DNA from: Rhododendron vialii
Taxonomy: Eukaryota; Streptophyta; Magnoliopsida; Ericales; Ericaceae
DNA length: 64,000 bases
Direction of reading: 5' to 3'
Assembly: GCF_030253575.1 (NCBI RefSeq)
Contig: NC_080559.1
Span: 3,308,501-3,372,500, forward strand
How positions within the stretch are numbered: position 1 is the stretch's first letter; each line of letters opens with the position of its first letter. Of this stretch, positions 2,401-29,900 are shown in pieces. A program made the position numbers and the translations under genes. The notes below the pieces were generated by a model. The model was given only the letters and a program-made list of their open reading frames with translations. It was not told the DNA's origin and did not search any database.

Positions 2401-3681
2401 TTACATAACGAAGCAACCAACTGCGGCGTAACTTGTATTGTAGTTTTCGAGCCCAGGGGCAAACAAAGAGCTGCGGAGTTCTTCAGCACCAAATACTTGA
2501 ATCTCTCCAATAACCTTGTTGTGATCACGCTTTTGGACACCTGGTGGAGGTGGGGGCAAGGGCAACAATCTTTGACCCTCCGGCCAATACTTCGATTCGT
2601 CAAAAGAGACCTTATCCATGCGCTTTTTGACAAGATGAAAGACGGTAGCAAAAACGTATGCCTTCCCATTGGCGAAGCCCTCCTTGTCGTTGCCAAATTT
2701 GAGAAGACAAACCCAGCCATTCCCCATGTCAAGGACATGGTAATAAATGCCATAGGCTAGAGGTGGCTTGGGAGTACGACGGATAGTCTCGAGGCCTTCA
2801 ACCTCTCTCCCTACCAATCCAAAATCTGCCGTGAGATTGAAAGTACTAATGGGGGACCTACGGTGGACAGAAGTACTAATGGCAGCCCACGCAGAGTCAA
2901 ATATCGGCATGACTGCCCCCTTAAAGGGCAAACGGAACCCGTTGCGGACCTTCAAAGGCGTCCATTGGCGGTTGTAGACATCAAAAACGTCCACTTGCTC
3001 CTTTTTGGTGGTGAAGAAAAAAATCCTTTGGCCAACAACAGCATGCGAGACAATCATGCCTGCACCGTTAATCTCAGTGCTCCCGTGGTTACTAGAGCGG
3101 CGATAGAAAGGAGGTCTGGGCAAGGAAGACCACTCTCCCTCACCCTCATTACCCTGTGGGTCGAAAACCTCGAATAATGGCTCCTCCTCACTGTAGAAAG
3201 TATAGAGACTAGGCAGAGCTGAAATGACGTATATCATCCCATCCACATGAATGGCCAGCGGTGACCTCTTACCACCTTCCATATGAGGTGCCACTGATAA
3301 AGGTGAAGAGGAGGAAATGGCAGCAGCAGTATCAAAGAAATACACTTTTTCGGAGATGCGTCGAGTATTTCTGCCTCCCTTGGCAGTAATACCAACTTCA
3401 CCGTTAAATCCAACTTCACCCCCAAGCAGATAGATCCTAGAGCCCAGGGCAAAGGAGCCCATACTGCGGGGATATTTCTCACTAGGCAGTTCGAATACAG
3501 TAGTCAAATTTCCCTTATTATCATCATTACCGATAGCACTAGTATCAAGCTTGTACATCACATACCTAACAGGACCACGATAGATATCGTAAAGCAGATA
3601 TACCTCAGAATCGTTGAAATCAAACCTTGTTCTTTTCCATGATGATGACGAAGAACCCACAAAATCCCTCTTCATTGACAT
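2401..3681 (-). CDS. Kelch-type beta-propeller protein, intact single-exon gene
   Basis: The 426-residue frame is open from its ATG to its stop with no intron. It contains kelch-like blades: a hydrophobic strand with a double glycine (GSRIYLLGG, about residues 80-88), a second blade with PLAIHVDGMIYVISALPSLY followed by the FEVFDP...WSSLPRPPF pattern, and a third with GQRIFFFTTKKEQVDVFD then W-T-P-L. This repeat type is known from plant kelch and F-box-kelch proteins, which act as substrate-binding adaptors. No F-box is visible at the N-terminus, which is serine- and basic-rich (GSSSSSWKRTRF). A proline-rich run lies near the C-terminus. The start is the first in-frame ATG; another Met two codons on is equally possible. 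It is the only clearly unbroken complete gene in the window. Its partner and biological role cannot be read from sequence. Confidence 0.85.
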   Translation of the reverse strand: MSMKRDFVGSSSSSWKRTRFDFNDSEVYLLYDIYRGPVRYVMYKLDTSAIGNDDNKGNLTTVFELPSEKYPRSMGSFALGSRIYLLGGEVGFNGEVGITAKGGRNTRRISEKVYFFDTAAAISSSSPLSVAPHMEGGKRSPLAIHVDGMIYVISALPSLYTFYSEEEPLFEVFDPQGNEGEGEWSSLPRPPFYRRSSNHGSTEINGAGMIVSHAVVGQRIFFFTTKKEQVDVFDVYNRQWTPLKVRNGFRLPFKGAVMPIFDSAWAAISTSVHRRSPISTFNLTADFGLVGREVEGLETIRRTPKPPLAYGIYYHVLDMGNGWVCLLKFGNDKEGFANGKAYVFATVFHLVKKRMDKVSFDESKYWPEGQRLLPLPPPPPGVQKRDHNKVIGEIQVFGAEELRSSLFAPGLENYNTSYAAVGCFVM

Positions 3682-4464
3682 CGGAAATGAAATCGAGCGA
3701 CAACGGAGGGAGATATATTGGTACTGTACTGAAAACGATTTGATCTTTAGTTTTTTTTCAAAAAATCTTGAAACCCTAGAATACCAAAAGAACGAGCTCG
3801 AATTTGCGAAATGGGTGTATCCTTAATATACAAGGGGAAATTGCAAAATAAACCCTCTTCTTTGGTCAAAATTGCAGTAGCCTACCTATCCTTTGGTCAA
3901 TTACAACTAGACACCTGAACTTTTAACCCCGTTAGCAATTAAGTCATCGACACCAGCTTGTTGGAAGAGAATTTGGACAATCAAAGGGTGGCACCGATAG
4001 CATACGCCCGTCTTGTTGATGGAAGTGTCACCAAACCAGCCACCAATCAAGTGGAGCTTGAGCTTGGGGACGATGCAATGACATGGTTATTTTGTGGATC
4101 CTCAACTCTATTGATAAATCTCTCACCGTCAGTACTATTTTACACAGACACTGTCCATAGTGTTTGTTCGACCTCAATGCCTATTTCACAGGAGTGAGAG
4201 AACTTTCCACAATCACCAAGGTTTACAAAGAAATCAAAGATCTCACCAACACTTTATTAAACAAACTACCATCAAAGTGGAAAGATCTTACCAAATACTC
4301 TCCAACACAATTGGAAATGAGAACCCGAAACATAGAACAAAAGCTAACTGAAATAAGCTGCCAAAATTGGAAGCTTTACGAAGTTGCACTTAAAGCTTGT
4401 TCTCCACAGTAAAAACACCCACATAGGGCACTGATGCACCAACCTTGTCCTCCTATTTTTCACC
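3682..4464. other. Intergenic stretch with an unidentified coding-like fragment
   Basis: The first part is the 5' flank of the kelch gene. On the plus strand, 4164-4412 is open for 82 codons and reads like real protein (ELSTITKVYKEIKDLTNTLL, LPSKWKDLTKYSPTQLEMRT, EISCQNWKLYEVALKACSPQ). The preceding 3958-4140 region has coding-like composition in a different frame. I do not recognise the family. It may be the tail of a decayed gene. Confidence 0.35.
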
Positions 4465-17868: not shown

Positions 17869-20800
17869 TCATAAAGTAAAAAATGTGGTTCCAAATACGC
17901 CGAACAACCTCGTCTCGATCTCCACTAGGAATCCAGGGAACACAATCGATATCATATCATCAAGTTTCTCCTGAGTGAACTCACTTCCCTAAACAAAATA
18001 GCAAGAAAATTTATATCAGTATTGTCAACAATGACTCAAACCAGTGTAAGCTCTCGTTCTCACCCTTGCCTCTCCGCTCTCGTCCTTGCCTCTCCTAGAC
18101 AGATATCAAACTAGTGTAAGCTCTCGCATTTGCTCCCTCTCTCATCTCGTTCATAGCAAACCCTAAAAGTCCTAATTCTATTCTTTCTTCAGAAACCACT
18201 ACAAGAAAAATGGGGTCTCACGACATTTGGAAACCGACGCTCTGTGGAATGGTGTCATTGGGGCAAGTATATCCGCGCTTCATCCAACGCTGAGTAAGTT
18301 TTCTACTCAAAATCGAATCTACCTAAATCTCTTGTTTGAGCTCACGATCTACATAAATCTCTTGTATGAGCTCAAAGAATTCTAAATCCGAATCTTTCTT
18401 TGACTTTGTCAATATCTCTTTTAAGCCCTTATTTCTAGAGTCTATGGCGTTCAAAACTTTTGATTTCTTCTTTCAGCCCTAATTTCGATAGTCTCTGTGT
18501 GTGTTTGATTTTGTCAATTCCTCTTTATGCCCTAACTTTGAGAGTCTCTCTCTCTTTGTGTGTTTACATATACATATACATATACATATAGAGATGTATG
18601 CATTTGTATGCATGTAATTAATTCTTTGCTCATTCAAGTCTGCAGTTTAAGCTCATTTGTAATTAATTCTTTGCTCTTTCGAGAGTCTCTCTATCGCTCT
18701 GTACTCTCAATTGCATCTTGTGTCCATGTGAATTGTGATGAAGAGAAACATCAAACAATAAAGCTAAAAGTGCAGGAAATCCTCTTGGGACCAAAATGTC
18801 TAAATCACCAAAATCAATGATTAAGGAGTCAAGAGAGCAGCTATGTTCAGAAATAGAGAGGAAGGGGCAAATTGCAGACGAGTCCAGTATGTTTTGTGAA
18901 TCATTGTTCGTAATAATAGAACTGCAGTTTATTCCTCCCTTAAATTTGCTTATAGTGATGTAGAAGTTGGTGGAATACGGGACACAATGTTTTCAGGTGC
19001 GCAGCATATGCACGGAAGCAGTTGGGCATACACGAGGCGCCAAATATCTTGACAATTGTTTTGAAGAGGTTTCAGGTACTATTATCTGTTCTAAAGAGTT
19101 TTTTGGAGTTCTTTTCATTACGACATTGAAGGGATTATGTTTCTGGAGGATCTATACACACATCATTTCTCTGAATTCAGTTGCTAACAAATCTTACACT
19201 TGCATAATATCCTAAACAGTTTTTCTACTTCAAAATGTGTGTTTAAAGTTCAATGCTAAGCCAAATGCATAATGATGTTTTGGATTTTTTGTATGTGTAT
19301 TTGTTATTTGTTAAATGGACATTTGTTACGTTGTTTGTTAAGTTGATCATGAAAAAAGCGGCGACTATTCCCCGCGTTTACAAAACAGGGAAGTATCCCC
19401 GACACGGGCAGGCGCGGCATTCACAAAAAAAGACAGGATAAACGCCAAGAAGACTTTAAACAACGTTAATTTCACATTTGCATGCGTTTAATAAACACCG
19501 GGAAATCCGAAATATATTGTAGTGACTACAACAGTAACCACAATATTTTGTAAAGGAATATGGTGTTCCATTTTGGGTTAGATAACTAGAAACAGTTGAA
19601 CACAAATGCATTGAAATTTGCGTTCCTAACTAGGGGGAGAAAAACCTTAGCAACAGCCCCGTATCAGAGTTAAAATGCACTTAACATAAATACCTCGTCA
19701 GAATATACACCAATGTGTCCAACAGCATTACGAAGCAATCGAGCCAAGCAATGAATGCTTTCAGAATATTCACCATCGTCCTTCCAATCAATACACTGTT
19801 GAATCGGAGAATCTTCTGGAACCCTATGTTGCCAAGTATAGCCTGAATTCGGACCAAACCAATCCAATTCTAAACCATCAAAAGCCTCTATGTAGGTTTG
19901 GTACAAAGCACCGACAAACGAACTCCAATCCCAAATGTTTCTTAAGAAGACAAGTCTCCTACCCAATCCCCATAAGCTGGGATGATCGTAGATGTTATCC
20001 TCATTGCCCCTAATACCAAAAGGAAACATCGTTAAACCAGATAAGCCTCTCTTTTTTATTGACTAGTAAAAGTGCACATGATTTGCATATGCGTGACTGT
20101 TTTTTTTGGAATCAAAATGTTTGTGACTTAGAGAATGATAATTTGAAAGGTTATTTTTTTTTATCATATCATTTCAAGTTGCTAACTGGCTGGACTACTT
20201 TCTCTATAGAACAGCTTCTTCTTTTTTTTCTTTTTGCAAAACCTAGGTATCAACTACATGCCAATTTCCAAACAAAGATTTTTCAAAGTAACGTAGCATT
20301 TGTGTCATTTTGTTATTGGTATTTCTGTGTATGCAGACAAGGATTATATTCTGAGAACAAGGTCAGTATGCAAGTAAAACACAGCTAATGTTAATACATG
20401 ACGAACAAGTGCTAAGCATTCGTAGGCAATGTAAAACTATATGCAATTAATGAAGTATGATGGCTGTAATCATAATATGGCACAAATCAACCAAATTTTG
20501 AAATAGAAAGACCATGTATATTTTACCTTCCCTTAATTCTAGTGGCACAAAATGCTTCTCTAACTCTTTCAAATCTTACGTGTTATATATAATTCCATAA
20601 TATCTTTCACCACTGTAGCTAAACCCTTACCCAGAACATCAAGCAACATACTTGCACAAATGTCAGTGGCGTCCATGCATAGATGGCTTACCCTAATCGC
20701 CCGTAAGAAAAACATAGTATACTCGTCCCTTGAAAGAACAACTTCCAGCTAACTTACCAAACCAACCAAAGATATGAAACTGGTGGGATATGGTGGAAAA

Positions 20801-23760
20801 AGGTACACATATTTGGCGGGAAGTTGGTTTTTTTTCCCCTCAGGTTAAGGATAAATCCACTTTATCCTTTGTGGTTTGAGGCCTAAGCGAATTATCTCAT
20901 TGATGTTTAAACTTCACCACATAAACCCTATGTACTTGCAGGACTAAAATGCACCATGAACTTCACTGACAGATTGAAGAAGAGGACCTTAGTGCCCCAC
21001 TCTTCTTTCTTCACCTTTGCAATGGCTTCCAGGGAGTGCAACCCCATTTCCTCCCACTTCCTATACCATCATCCCTCACCACCAGATTAATAGAAAGCAA
21101 CAGATCCATATGAAGATCCAAGGACTTCCATCTCCATATGCATGTTAGATTTGTGTACACGGTGTACAGAAATGTACAGTATACGTGGAAGTTGAGAGAG
21201 GCACCATTAAACTTTTTGCCACCGCAACTTCCTCATAGAGACGACCCTATAAGCAATCATCGCCGTCTTGGGGCTATAATAACAAAGTTCGACAACAATG
21301 ATGTATTATTGAAGCTTAGCTTGGTCATCAAGATGAAGTTGAAATCCTTTTTATCAAAACTGTTCACCCCCTATACTCCCCATAAAACATTAAGTGAGGA
21401 AGTCGCCTTATGGCCTCAATCTAACATTGAAGCCCCTATTGCTCAGGAACGGAATTGCTCAAGACAGAGAAGGATTATAGTCTTTTAGGTTTTGGGGTTC
21501 GGCGTATGGCAGGAAATAGAAGATTAATAATAATTCAATTCGCATTTGTTATACAGAAAATTACAAAGTTGGAGGACCCAAATTAGATCCTCCACCCTAT
21601 CTTTTTAAAAATAAAAGAAGAAAGTTATCCTACTCAAGTCGGTCTTTTCACGCAGGGAAATGTGACTGCATATTTTGTTAATTAGAACAGAAAATATGAC
21701 CATACATATAGTCCAGAAACTACAAAGAGGTTAAGCGGTCAAGTTTCAAAGACAAGGAGGCGATTCACACAAGCCTTAAATCACAATAGGCTAGAGCGAA
21801 CTTTACCAAAAAATAACCACTAAATATGCAAGTTAAAAATACAACACAACAAATTTCCGTTTGACCGGGAAAAAAAAATACAACACAATTAAGAACCAAA
21901 AAAAGCCAGCTTTATCTTTTTCCCATTATCTTTCATCTAAGGGTACTAAACAACAACTGGGCTGTTGACAAGTTTAAGAATTCCCAATATGCTTTTTCTT
22001 TTTTCTCTACTTCTTGCAATCTCTGAATTAGTTCAGTAGGCAAAGACCAAGAAATTGATAAAAGACGAGATAAATAATACAAGGTCTGACGCGGTATTTC
22101 AATTTTAGAATACATCCCGGAAATAATAGTATAAATTAACTACGCTTAACATGTGTTCTGTGCCTGTCATTTTCCTGAAGAACGATATCCTATCATTTCC
22201 AATGTCTTCCCAAGCTACTGCTTCGTTTATATCAAACACGAAGGTTCAGAACGTTGCTTCTTTTAGGAGGCGCGAGAGTGGACGTTGCATCTTTTTGCAT
22301 TTTGGTGTCTTCTGGAAAAGATTCAGAATGGATTATTGTGGTATTAATATGGGTGGGTTAGATATTTCAAGTGTTTTGAAGAACAAGATGTAATAGCTTC
22401 TTTACAAAACTGTCACATTCCTAGCCTATCATATTCCTAGCCATTAGAGAGGCAGAGAAGGAAAATACGTCCGTGTGAAACATGTTAGGATAATTCTCAA
22501 TGCTGAATGAAGCAATTCAACAAACACCTAAAGTGCAATAATTTTTTACTACAACAAATTATGTTCTGATCCACAACTCAACATAAGATCAACACGTTTG
22601 GGAATGCCTACCATGTGGAATTGTAGAACTCGGAAGGCGATGGAAAACGAAAGCCTTACTGGCCGTCGCAACATGGAGAAGCCAGTGTAATTGGGAGGAG
22701 TCGGTGAGGGAACGAATGTACACTTTGGGGGGGCTCCACAGTAGGGATTCATTTTGTTTCGTTTTGTATTGAACCGTTTATATCAGAGGCTTCATTTGGG
22801 TAATCGACTGTCGTTTAGGGAACGGTACGAGGGTTGTAAATTTGGGTTGGAACGTTATTTCAAGTGTCCTCAAGGGGTATTTTGGGTAGGAAAAGTGTGG
22901 GAAACACTTTTGGGCTTTTCGATTTTTAAAGTAGAGAAGATTAAATGCAAAATCTTATAAAGATCCAACCAGGTTCTAGGGACTATACAAGAAACAAATA
23001 CAACAGCAAATTTAAGGCAACAACAAAACAATATAACAAAACCAAAACCTATCCATAGAATTTTAAGAATCCTATACCTGAAATTGCCAAGTTGGTCCCT
23101 CAGCATCCGAAGCTCGATTGGAATATACTTGTATTGATAAATATAGTCAATGATAGCATCAATCGCCTTGAAATCAGCTTCAACCCGATCATCATTAGAG
23201 GGGTACACAATAATACCCACAAGTTTTGGCATATCACCACACATCACGATATTGTCAAGTGAAAATCCATTAAGGGCTCTTTTTTTGGAGTGGAAGTACT
23301 TGAGCAAACCCATCAAATTACTGCAAAAAATAAAAAATAAAAGCTTTGTTTATAAAAAAAACAATAGATAAAATTTCAAAATACTTAGCAATTGAAAAAA
23401 ATTACCGTAACAATCCTTTAACATCATCGTGGACCATTAGGTGAGTTAGTCCATAATGAGTACTCTTTTTCAACCATTCCCCCCTTCCAATCCCCTCCCG
23501 TACATACCGCCTGAAATCTTCAGTATATCGTTCATATACGATTGAGAAACGACCACTAGATGACACGTGTCCACAAAAGCTCCGAAGCAAACTTGGATGG
23601 GTGTACACAGTGGATGAGTACCAAGCACGGCAAAATAACTCACGGTCCTTAAAATGCCTAATGTAGGCTTGGTTGTGCCAGGGGTGCATCGACCCCCAAC
23701 TCTCCACGACATAATCGGCTGTTACATCGTACGTGCAATTACCAGTCTCCATCTGGTTGA
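17869..23760 (-). CDS. Pseudokinase plus KEN endoribonuclease domain protein (RNase L/IRE1-like), 5' end not found
   Basis: Four minus-strand exons join in phase with no stop: 23760-23406, 23320-23078, 20009-19694 and 17988-17869, each with AG/GT borders, giving about 344 codons. The first two resemble a protein kinase: YTHPSLLRSFCGHV (alphaC/beta4 region), SIVYERYTEDFRRYV (hinge), GLLKYFHSKKRALNGFSLDN (catalytic loop) and PKLVGIIVY. The catalytic HRD is replaced by LNG and DFG is not recognisable, so a pseudokinase is inferred. The last two fit the KEN nuclease of IRE1 and RNase L: HPSLWGLGRRLVFL, IDWKDDGEYSESIHCLARLL, LLRNAVGH, and ending FPGFLVEIETRLF. The R-N-x3-H set and a nearby Tyr, catalytic in IRE1, are present. 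Known KEN proteins cleave RNA after dimerisation. The kinase N-lobe is missing; upstream exons were not identified. An ATG at 23821 would add a hydrophobic leader but reads through a plausible acceptor. A CACTA-like element sits in the last intron. Confidence 0.75.
18197..19524. mobile_element. CACTA-like DNA transposon, non-autonomous, about 1.3 kb
   Basis: The left end is CACTACAAGAAAAATGGGG, the classic start of plant CACTA elements. The right end ATATATTGTAGTG gives CACTACAA in reverse complement. Subterminal blocks rich in CGACGC, CCGCGCTT, GCGGCGAC and CCGCGTTT lie inside both ends. The 3-bp flanks (AAC and ACT) do not match, so the right border is less certain. No transposase is recognisable; short unrelated frames inside (for example a Lys/Ser-rich one near 18790) may be captured DNA. 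It lies within the final intron of the KEN gene. Confidence 0.55.
20010..23077. other. Large intron of the KEN gene, 3 kb
   Basis: This lies between the kinase-like exon ending at 23078 and the KEN exon starting at 20009. It is AT-rich and holds no recognised mobile element. Frames such as 21933-22115 (minus) show no domain and would not keep phase between the flanking exons, which join directly (AG + G). Confidence 0.55.
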
Positions 23761-23821
23761 CTATTGCCAAAGTAAAATGAAACATGAAAACACACAAGCA
23801 ACAAAAGGAAACCCAAGTCAA

Positions 23822-24519
23822 ATGTCAACGAAAACCATTTAAGGAAAAATATCACAATACATGGTTTAATTTCACATATTACATTCTAGGAACCAAAACT
23901 GCAACAGATCAAATTTGCTATCGGTAACAAACATAAGAGAGTTAAAGGGAGAAACATGGGTAGACTAGAGAGGATTATAATTTCTACGGCGAGAAGAGGT
24001 ATACATGCATGGTGTGGTGAAAGGTCTAGTAGTCGAGATGGTGAGGTCTAAAATTGCATGATAGGGTCTTGGAAAAACATATATGGAAGAAAAGAAATTC
24101 CCCCATTTGTTTGATGATGGAAATAGCCCAAGCTATCCCAAAATATTGTTGTGTTTTTAAGTATCCAATTGTGATGATATTTCTCCTGCGATTGGGAGAA
24201 GTTGTGTGTCTATTCATTGGGTGAGTTGGTCCAAGTTGTGTTCTTGTAAATTTGATGAATGTGTATTTGGAGATGCTCGAAAGACCAAGATACTAATCAC
24301 ATACGAGAGAGGCTTGAGATGTCAAAAAAAGTAACTTGTGAATTTTATTTTCCTTTTTACCACGAAAAACAAATATTAAAAATAAAAGTCCTGTGGTCTA
24401 ACTTCTGAATTTGTTAAAAAGAAACTGAGCTTTTTGAAATGGTAAATTCTAAATACAACTCACTTGCTAAATAAAACTACCATTTTTTTTCCTTTTGACA
24501 TGCAAGAAGTGTTAGTTGT
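23822..24519. other. Non-coding stretch upstream of the KEN gene
   Basis: No exon with a kinase glycine loop or beta3 lysine was found on the minus strand here. Promoter elements could not be placed. Confidence 0.4.
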
Positions 24520-26969: not shown

Positions 26970-29900
26970 ATGCATGTTCACACCTGCGTAAATGGGGTAC
27001 AAAACCATAATGGCGTGTAGGAGAAGCTCGATGAACTCCGACGAGTTCTTGCTAAAGCCAAGGGTGATTTGTTAAGGATTGTGGGTGTTGGAGCCGGGGC
27101 TTGGGGCAGTGTTTTCACAGCCGTACTTCAAGATGGGTATGGTCAATTCCGCGATAAGGTCCAAATCCGAATACGGAGGCGACCCGGGAGAGCTGTGGAC
27201 AGATCCACAGCTGAACACCTCTTTGATGTGATAAATTCAAGAGAAGATGTGCTGAGAAGGTTGATTAGGTGATGCGCATATTTGAAGTACGTGGAAGCAC
27301 AACTGGGTGAATGGATATTTTATGTGGATGAGATATTGAAAGATGGGTTTTGTTTGAACATGATCGACGCGCCGCGTTGTCCTTCGAAAGTTGTGACTAA
27401 TTTGCAGGAGGCGGTTTGGGATGCCAACATTGTTGTGAATGGGTTGCCTTCAACGGAGACACGAGAGGTGTTTGAAGAGCTCAGTAAGTATTGGAAAGAA
27501 AGGATCAGTGTGCCCATTATTCTCTCTTTGGCAAAGGGCATAAAGGCTGCATTGGAAACTGTTCCTCATATAATTACGCCAACACAAATGATAAATCGAG
27601 CAAGTAAGATTCTTCCTCTAACTATCACGTCTTTTGTTTCTGCTATTTGTCTTTCCTCCTCCCCATACACATTGAAAGACACAAATTCCATGGTGTCTTT
27701 GTAAAACTAGCATTAGTTTGTCTATAACGTTCATTGCTACCATGAAAGGATGGCAAAATTATAGTGACTGAAATCTTGTAACCTTGTACCTTAGATGAAG
27801 GAAAATGAAATTTTGAACCTGTAAATCATTAACTCACGATATCAAGATTACTGATCATGTCAACCACGTATTTGGTTGAATCCTGGTAGGATCAGTCGGG
27901 AGTAGAACAATGGGTAGTGCGAAATGAAAGCATGTATCAACAACTCTAACTTTGTACAATAATTTGCAACTTCTCACAATAGAGAAAAGCGGAAAGTGGG
28001 TGTTTTATTTTTATTTTTTGGGTACTTCCGAATTTGGAAAGTGGGTGTTTGCATAAGAGAGGAAAATGGAAAGTGAAGTGGTGCACACTTTCTATTCTAG
28101 AACTTAGCACAAGAGGGGAAATTAGAAAGTGCGTTTTTGCTTTTTGCATGTGAAGCGGCAAACTTAATATTCTTAAGTAGAATAGGGTGTAGACAATATA
28201 TCTAACTTTCTTAATGATAACATGTATATACACAACCAAAAAAGTTGCAACCCGCACAACATAACCATACCTGTTTTCATATCTGATTATACTATGCAGT
28301 TTTGGCTTAGAAGATTAATTATTTACTTTTCTGCTTTGAAGTGGAAGTACATTTTCTATCCTTTTCGAAACCATAGTCTAAAAACATGGCAGCTGGAGTA
28401 CTATTAGATAACATTCTTTATCTGGGTGGACCGAATATTGCCTCAGAGATTTACAACAAGGAGTATGCTAATGCTCGAATTTGTGGTGCTGAGATGTGGA
28501 GGAAGCCACTTGCAAAGTTCTTGAGGCAACCCCATTTCATTGTGTGGGACAATAGTGACCTTGTCACTCATGAAGTTATGGGAGGATTGAAGAATGTCTA
28601 TGCCATTGGCGCTGTTAAGTGTAATTAGTTTCTTGATACACAGTGAGCGATGGGTATGTACAGGTAAATTGAAGGACAAATTCTAAGTTTCCTTCCTATT
28701 CTTTGAAACCCTTGTTAGGTTAAAATGAAGGCAGGTAATCATGCAAAAACAAATTCACGAGCATTAAAATGGTAGGCTGCACCTATTATCTAGGATCAGA
28801 GTTCTTTATGCTACACTACAACAAATGGTGGAATGTTGACCATTGAATTTAATTTTTTTTTTTAAACAGCAATGACCGTTGAATTGTTAACTCGCACAGC
28901 TATCACAGAAATCCAGTTAGTTGCATTTAATTTCTACCAACTTTTTTTTAAAAGCTTCTAATTATTCTAAATTCTTGATGCATGGAGGCTGACTAGCTGG
29001 ACAGTGGACATGACTCGAGAAACACTACATTACTCTATGTATTGTGACAGATACAGGCTAGAAAAGAAACTGTCTTCTTTACAATAGGACTGGTTGACAA
29101 CACAAAAAGTAATTCCTTTATTAGACTAGAGTGAATGACAACTGTGTCGAGTTTGTGACCTAAGTTCCCAACACTTGCTTTGGATTCGGTTTCACAGGAA
29201 TGGTAGCAGCTCTAACAAGTGAAAGTGCCACCAGCAAATCTGTATATTTTGCACATTGTACATCAGAGATTCAGAGATGATATTTATCACCCATTTGTTG
29301 GCTTAAGAACGTGAGAAGCTTGCTGGGCCTCTATTGGCTGATACTTACGTAACCCTTTTGAAAGGTCGTAATGCATGGTATGGTCAAATGATTGCAAGGG
29401 GGGAACTGAGCCTCGACATGGGTGATAGCATTAGCGGGAAGGGGATGATCCAGGTACTAATCCCAGTTACAGTACTTGGCTAGTTAAACATTGAAATAAT
29501 TTTCTTGTCCGAGTCTGGTAATTATGCTATTGGAGATTTGAAAAAGTCTTAATTATTTTCTTAGAAGACGAAGGAAGTATCTTGTTACCACTTATGAAAA
29601 CTTGCGTTGGCTTATCTGCAAAGTGATCAAGAAGACTAGAGAAAATTATACCCAAACTATACACTGTACAGTACCCCGGCATCCCAATGATTTACTTTCT
29701 GTTTTGAAAATTGGAAGAGGTGGTCTTGATTCTAGGAGAAATAGGATGTGTCTGACATTCCCGTAGTGGCTTTGTGGAAGTTATCTTTCTCCATAATGAT
29801 ATCTAGGAGGTGGTGCTGTTTCCTTGCAAGATTTTGATGAGTTTGCAATTGAATTGACTAGTTTTATACCATGCACTTACCGTAGAGTTGGGGGATTTTC

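Follow-up and report, generated by a model that had tools for sequence, protein, structure and literature searches.

In IRE1 the state of the kinase is coupled to the ribonuclease (RNase), and in RNase L a pseudokinase that binds ATP is retained. RNase L is an ankyrin-repeat protein with 2-5A as its activator; its pseudokinase, which binds ATP via largely conserved residues, is described as a presumed scaffold for homodimerization (PMC4718504). RNase activation of IRE1 is described as accompanying back-to-back dimers of the kinase part (PMC4536996), and the active site of the enzyme as being formed by two molecules (PMC8104961). Plants are described to possess a sensor-less IRE1 in the Brassicaceae, IRE1C, which has its own role in gametophyte development with kinase and RNase kept (PMC6788458, PMC6883098) and in which the transmembrane domain is present as well (PMC6883098), and a survey of HEPN domains describes lineage-specific expansions of plant KEN proteins besides ordinary IRE1, which occur apart from the kinase domain and for the most part in monocots such as rice (PMC3710099). 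Here, a gene on the minus strand of a 64,000-nucleotide stretch of the Rhododendron vialii genome (the window, C3:3308501-3372500 of 532.6 Mb) is described, LOC131319462, in which a degenerate kinase is followed by a predicted KEN nuclease (Pfam PF06479 Ribonuc_2-5A, curated cut-off 23.3 bits). Its product appears to be an IRE1-derived pseudokinase-KEN protein that is RNase L-like by convergence and arose separately.

The window protein resembles IRE1C (Arabidopsis AT3G11870) in being, in its annotated form, an IRE1-derived kinase-KEN protein without a sensor in the lumen of the endoplasmic reticulum, but differs from it in that a membrane segment is not evident, the HRD Asp and DFG are absent, and the region of the activation segment is shorter by about 59 residues. 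In joining a pseudokinase to KEN it is similar to RNase L, from which it differs by the absence of a listed ankyrin match and the loss of both the HRD and the DFG Asp; by analogy, it would at most work like RNase L by convergence and is not a member of the RNase L family. With the plant KENs of the HEPN survey it has in common that they represent a plant KEN expansion, but the window family belongs to a genus of dicots and has retained a remnant of the kinase, a distinction drawn from the description given in the survey and not from its sequences. Its likeness to the IRE1-like genes of Rhododendron lies in the intron sites common to both. The distinctive point is a dicot family with a kinase remnant, without kinase chemistry, and among the papers listed by a literature search of partial coverage none dealt with such a plant protein in its title or abstract opening.

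The original prediction of four exons joining in phase without a stop was borne out: the joined exons encode 341 amino acids with 0 internal stops, all introns have a GT donor and an AG acceptor, the junctions are as had been proposed, and the translation (P0001) is 100% identical (341/341 residues) to the NCBI entry 'uncharacterized protein LOC131319462 [Rhododendron vialii]'. Nanopore full-length RNA data of R. vialii and the short reads SRR13338561 are given as material for the annotation (PMC10338486). As for the proposed span of 17869 to 23760, the exon positions were correct, whereas the upper end overshoots the ATG at 23752 by 8 bases on the 5' side. An Rfam search yielded no match. The features of the gene are as follows.

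23406-23752, minus strand: exon 1, which begins with the start codon, encodes the degenerate N-lobe of the kinase and ends within the codon of Arg116 (phase 2); the intron lies at an IRE1 intron position and has its phase.
23078-23320, minus strand: exon 2, kinase remnant, residues 116-197, from splicing and profile alignment; 81 residues lie between the Arg residues of the first two introns.
23266-23274, minus strand: LNG, residues 132-134, in place of HRD, with Gly134 at the catalytic Asp position by profile alignment and at +18 from the intron Arg.
23209-23217, minus strand: GII, residues 151-153, at the place of DFG/DMG if KLVGII is set against KLSDMG by eye; the alignment is uncertain here.
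19694-20009, minus strand: exon 3, first part of KEN (HPSLW to RLVFLRN, with Tyr278 and RNAVGH), from splicing, alignments and model.
19970-19984, minus strand: HPSLW, residues 206-210, start motif of KEN and counterpart of IRE1 HPLFW in the alignments.
19766-19768, minus strand: Tyr278, aligned with the conserved Tyr of IRE1 KEN in the 59-row alignment.
19715-19732, minus strand: RNAVGH, residues 290-295, nuclease motif R-N-x3-H, from the alignments.
17869-17988, minus strand: exon 4, end of KEN (FPGFL, and an FFTL tail common to relatives) and stop codon; the preceding intron is in phase 0, as in the C10 IRE1-like genes.
17926-17940, minus strand: FPGFL, residues 319-323, aligned with FP.LL of IRE1 KEN in the 59-row alignment and outside the profile-aligned stretch.

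The relationship to IRE1 was detected by profile comparison. A profile built from P0001, the R. simsii protein P0002 and a second R. vialii copy (L009) matched the profile of 64 proteins from an IRE1-KEN search with a probability of 96.2%, an E value of 2.5e-9 and a score of 75.2, as compared to a maximum of 21.4 in 60 column shuffles. The comparison set comprised all proteins of 300-610 amino acids among the 93 found, with no other selection, and includes a few without kinase or full KEN; a second alignment comprised 51 motif-filtered proteins and P0001-P0003. Colinearity of the match extends between the N-lobe HP motif and the RNxxxH His, the aligned stretch ending at His295. When the halves were compared separately, KEN reached 90% (P 1.6e-6) and the kinase half, with a weaker match, 76% (P 2.2e-5). 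Hence, the window protein is predicted to be a kinase-KEN relative of IRE1, with a similarity beyond chance.

The gene structure adds evidence of a kind not based solely on similarity between proteins. In the gene for P0033, an IRE1-like protein encoded on C10 of R. vialii, one intron splits the Arg of LMR/DVV in phase 2, another splits the Arg of ELR/PKA nine residues before the His of HP, also in phase 2, and a third lies nine residues past the RNxxxH motif in phase 0. In the window gene, the first intron falls within the codon of Arg116 and the second within that of Arg197, which again precedes the HP His by nine residues; both are in phase 2. The third interrupts the frame seven residues past His295 (phase 0). 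All 3 of its 3 introns thus have a counterpart in the P0033 gene: the first two sites are exact in the alignment, the third is at most 2 residues off, being two residues nearer to the His, and the phases are identical. The extra intron of the P0033 gene between the first two is missing from the window gene along with the coding stretch around it. Since the third intron is absent from the IRE1-like gene on C6 (L027), the window family is structurally closer to the C10 genes. The original prediction had spoken of a fusion of kinase and KEN; because the introns are those of IRE1, the gene is best read as IRE1's own kinase-KEN pair that decayed in place, and a true gene fusion was rejected. Orthology to RNase L was likewise rejected on the basis of the IRE1 introns and of the absence of a listed ankyrin match in Pfam for the annotated protein, and the likeness to RNase L is, given IRE1 descent, a convergence.

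The kinase looks dead: Gly occupies the place of the HRD Asp, a DFG is lacking, and about 59 residues have been lost. The replacement of HRD by LNG and the loss of DFG, both claimed beforehand, were confirmed in the translation. The HRD Asp lies at +18 from the first-intron Arg in 11 IRE1-like proteins, as does Gly134 from Arg116, and the span between the two intron Arg residues amounts to 135-161 residues in these proteins as compared to 81 in the window protein, which places the loss of about 59 residues around the activation segment; all four anchors, HRD included, could be placed in 11 of 96 proteins, hence this set was chosen for holding HRD. The profile alignment puts the DFG Asp column at Tyr157 and the placement by eye at Gly151, and under either alignment there is no D-x-G motif in residues 144-175. 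The exact place of DFG is therefore uncertain, its loss is not. The beta-3 Lys seems, by eye and with uncertainty, to be Arg or another residue. Among the family copies reaching the HRD region, Gly is read, or Glu in one L014 copy, and Asp in none. None of the marks of an active IRE1 kinase (HRD Asp, DFG Asp and activation segment) was found in the window protein, while the three IRE1-like genes of the same plant whose kinase exons were read, L027 on C6 as well as the C10 genes L028 and L029, have retained HRD and D[ML]G, which agrees with the proposed contrast between this degenerate kinase, joined to a KEN with nuclease residues, and the active kinase normal for plant IRE1. L028 and L029 belong to a cluster of IRE1-like genes and fragments at C10:37015080-37200851 (L016-L023, L025, L028 and L029) that holds 9 of the 13 PF06479 matches obtained in R. 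vialii. P0033 (569 amino acids), encoded in this cluster, has hydrophobic N-terminal stretches, is too short for a large lumenal domain and resembles Arabidopsis IRE1C.

By contrast to the kinase, the residues predicted to be needed by the RNA-cutting half are kept. The translation contains RNAVGH and FPGFL as had been noted from the bases. In the 59-protein alignment, His295 is invariant and Tyr278, Arg290 and Asn291 are nearly so. The KEN Tyr aligned with Tyr278 is presumably a catalytic residue. The roles of the R, N and H of the KEN nuclease have been described (PMC3710099). When six family KENs were compared (P0001, L009, P0002, L010 and two C4 copies), invariance was seen in 16 of 91 ungapped columns, which include those of Tyr, Arg, Asn and His (hypergeometric 7e-4), with the qualification that the six are not independent: the C4 copies are near-identical, P0002 is closely similar to L010, and the loci of three of the six bear stops or are rearranged.

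Relatives of the gene were found only in Rhododendron. A search of about 5.8 billion proteins at E up to 0.01 returned two, the window protein itself and P0002 of R. simsii (40%), and a search with both aligned at E up to 10 returned three, adding P0003, a shorter R. simsii neighbour that largely repeats P0002. Outside R. vialii, no annotated protein in these searches was closer than this pair (39-41% identity); the searches require shared five-residue words and could miss unannotated or more distant relatives. Within R. vialii, where the best candidates of a genome search give a minimum number of family loci, an intact second copy with the same four exons, L009 (C3:3472531-3473898), is located about 140 kb from the window gene on the same chromosome and encodes 343 amino acids with 51% identity; no protein record for it was among the protein-search matches. 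The ratio of nonsynonymous to synonymous substitutions (dN/dS) between the two is 0.64 (bootstrap 0.46-0.88) at a dS of 0.56, and it is nearly the same for the kinase (0.63) and the KEN half (0.65). When the coding sequence of the window gene was evolved neutrally over half the divergence to L009, with substitutions only, the frame stayed open in 1 of 2000 runs. GT-AG splice sites and nuclease residues are retained in both intact copies. The intact paralog and the dN/dS value argue against a pseudogene.

Two further loci gave PF06479 matches. The C4 locus L013 (C4:43726500-43734000), which matches P0001, comprises two copies of the family on opposite strands, with stops, and one of them reaches 28.3 bits on PF06479, above the cut-off. 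These copies seem by eye to hold Asp at the DFG position (KFIDVDV) and, for this reason and because one is over the KEN cut-off, look like an intermediate, earlier stage of the same kinase loss. At L010 (C3:26148500-26155000), rearranged copies related to P0002 and P0003 lie on both strands; PF06479 is the only listed Pfam match of its KEN exon, at 13.5 bits and E 0.083, below the cut-off. In R. vialii, exon 1 of the forward copy is interrupted by a stop, whereas P0002 of R. simsii is intact. L011 has lost the part with the nuclease motif and gave no KEN match in Pfam.

Several results weigh against the reading of the window gene as a decayed IRE1 with a working nuclease. Pfam hmmscan of the whole protein and of both halves, at a limit of E 10 and with filters that drop most weak matches, listed neither KEN nor Pkinase, which places the protein below the PF06479 cut-off; PDB sequence searches returned no relevant KEN or kinase entry, the three-sequence profile found no KEN and no kinase in either database, and the rows obtained were at chance level (Ac110 family, E 0.8-1.5; bromodomain factor, 1.1). 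L009 and the stop-free C4 KEN piece had no KEN match in Pfam either. A missing KEN hit had been named in the original prediction as a result that would speak against it, and since these searches found neither domain, further proof of the kinase-KEN identity was needed; the absent direct match is outweighed by the more sensitive evidence of profiles and introns. In the structural comparison that had been proposed, the modelled C-terminus matches IRE1 and RNase L structures, but the model is poor (mean predicted local distance difference test, pLDDT, 53; kinase blocks 28-53), Foldseek TM-scores were 0.20-0.30 among the first 12 matches listed, and the match is not independent because the input alignment of 59 rows contained IRE1 sequences. 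An earlier model built from two sequences was useless (mean pLDDT 38). Moreover, Tyr278 is one residue nearer to the Arg than in IRE1, and R1039, described as the RNA-binding Arg of yeast Ire1 (PMC8104961), has no clear counterpart by eye, a Lys being nearby in the window protein and nothing basic in L009. At five other family loci (L010 to L014) the copies are fragmentary, rearranged or interrupted by stops, so family copies die often. Finally, the start of the gene is uncertain, as the frame of exon 1 is open for 24 residues 5' of the annotated ATG (23753-23824, minus strand). This extension, which contains a hydrophobic stretch and a second in-frame ATG, could represent either the end of an intron or a protein with a longer N-terminus. 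Counted by hand, the stretch before the HP motif comprises 51 residues, roughly as many as a complete kinase N-lobe has, and the upstream N-lobe exon for which a search had been suggested is therefore not needed, while a further upstream exon or a more 5' start may exist. In the annotated model, to which this statement applies, no membrane segment is evident, the maximum 19-residue hydropathy being 1.4 as compared to 2.0 in P0033 and 3.2 in P0005.

Taken together, the data support IRE1 descent, a kinase that has lost DFG, the HRD Asp and about 59 residues around the activation segment, a KEN domain that has retained Tyr, Arg, Asn and His, and selection acting to keep the frame open in both intact copies. 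We propose, with a probability of roughly 0.6, that a duplicated plant IRE1 gene without sensor lost its kinase and yielded a small protein of 341 amino acids, in which the shrunken kinase would be a mere scaffold for the back-to-back pairing of two molecules, by analogy with IRE1 and RNase L, and the paired KEN domains would cut RNA as in these enzymes, without phosphorylation and probably without ATP. Because there is no sensor or ankyrin part, its activity would likely be set by the amount of protein or by a partner, possibly intact IRE1; alternatively, a ligand may control it. A bolder version, in which the sensor-less IRE1 copy has become an independent plant RNase L-like enzyme, a phosphorylation- and ATP-independent RNase that expanded in Rhododendron through birth and death in the manner of defence genes, is tentative and rather doubtful.

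The presence of intact IRE1-like genes in the same genome, the missing clear counterpart of the substrate-binding Arg, as judged by eye, and an IRE1 active site described as assembled from two molecules (PMC8104961) would also suit a regulator that pairs with intact IRE1 via its kinase and KEN surfaces, as decoy or helper, and keeps the nuclease residues mainly for shape or for a mixed active site. We regard this as unlikely, since nothing in a pure decoy would call for the invariance of Tyr, Arg, Asn and His in six KENs that have only 16 of 91 ungapped columns in common. That the gene is a dying duplicate, an IRE1 copy without function drifting while two frames are still open, is slightly harder still to credit: it would account for the five broken loci, the high dN/dS of 0.64, the lack, among the protein-search matches, of any annotated relative outside R. 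vialii closer than the R. simsii pair and the missing protein record for L009, but the bootstrap interval of dN/dS stays below 1, an open frame was obtained in only 1 of 2000 neutral simulations, and splice sites and nuclease residues are kept in both intact copies. Coincidental motifs in a plant family unrelated to IRE1 and KEN would explain the lack of direct Pfam or PDB matches; this view is highly improbable, being already contradicted by the shuffle-controlled profile match, the intron sites and phases common with IRE1, the C4 relative over the KEN cut-off and the L010 KEN exon with PF06479 as its sole listed match.

If the proposed loss of the kinase with retention of nuclease activity is true, a natural KEN protein shows how little kinase suffices for the RNase to work, and RNase L-like proteins have been reached a second time by an independent route; the window protein could also regulate plant IRE1. 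Because a small protein with no evident membrane segment is predicted, the question is open to direct testing.

The opposite decay was seen in Morus notabilis, where 4 of 6 IRE1-like rows (P0055, P0068, P0072 and P0073) keep HRD and DMG while the KEN R-N is changed or the motif broken (e.g., IGDMLNH), and P0063 and P0086 retain R-N-x3-H; this suggests kinase-only IRE1 copies in mulberry. Elsewhere in the window, an open frame of 473 amino acids (2401-3822, minus strand) matches DUF1668 (E 1.9e-19) and, less strongly, kelch, and one of 143 amino acids (27273-27704, plus strand) matches the N-terminus of NAD-dependent glycerol-3-phosphate dehydrogenase at 27.1 bits (cut-off 23.1).
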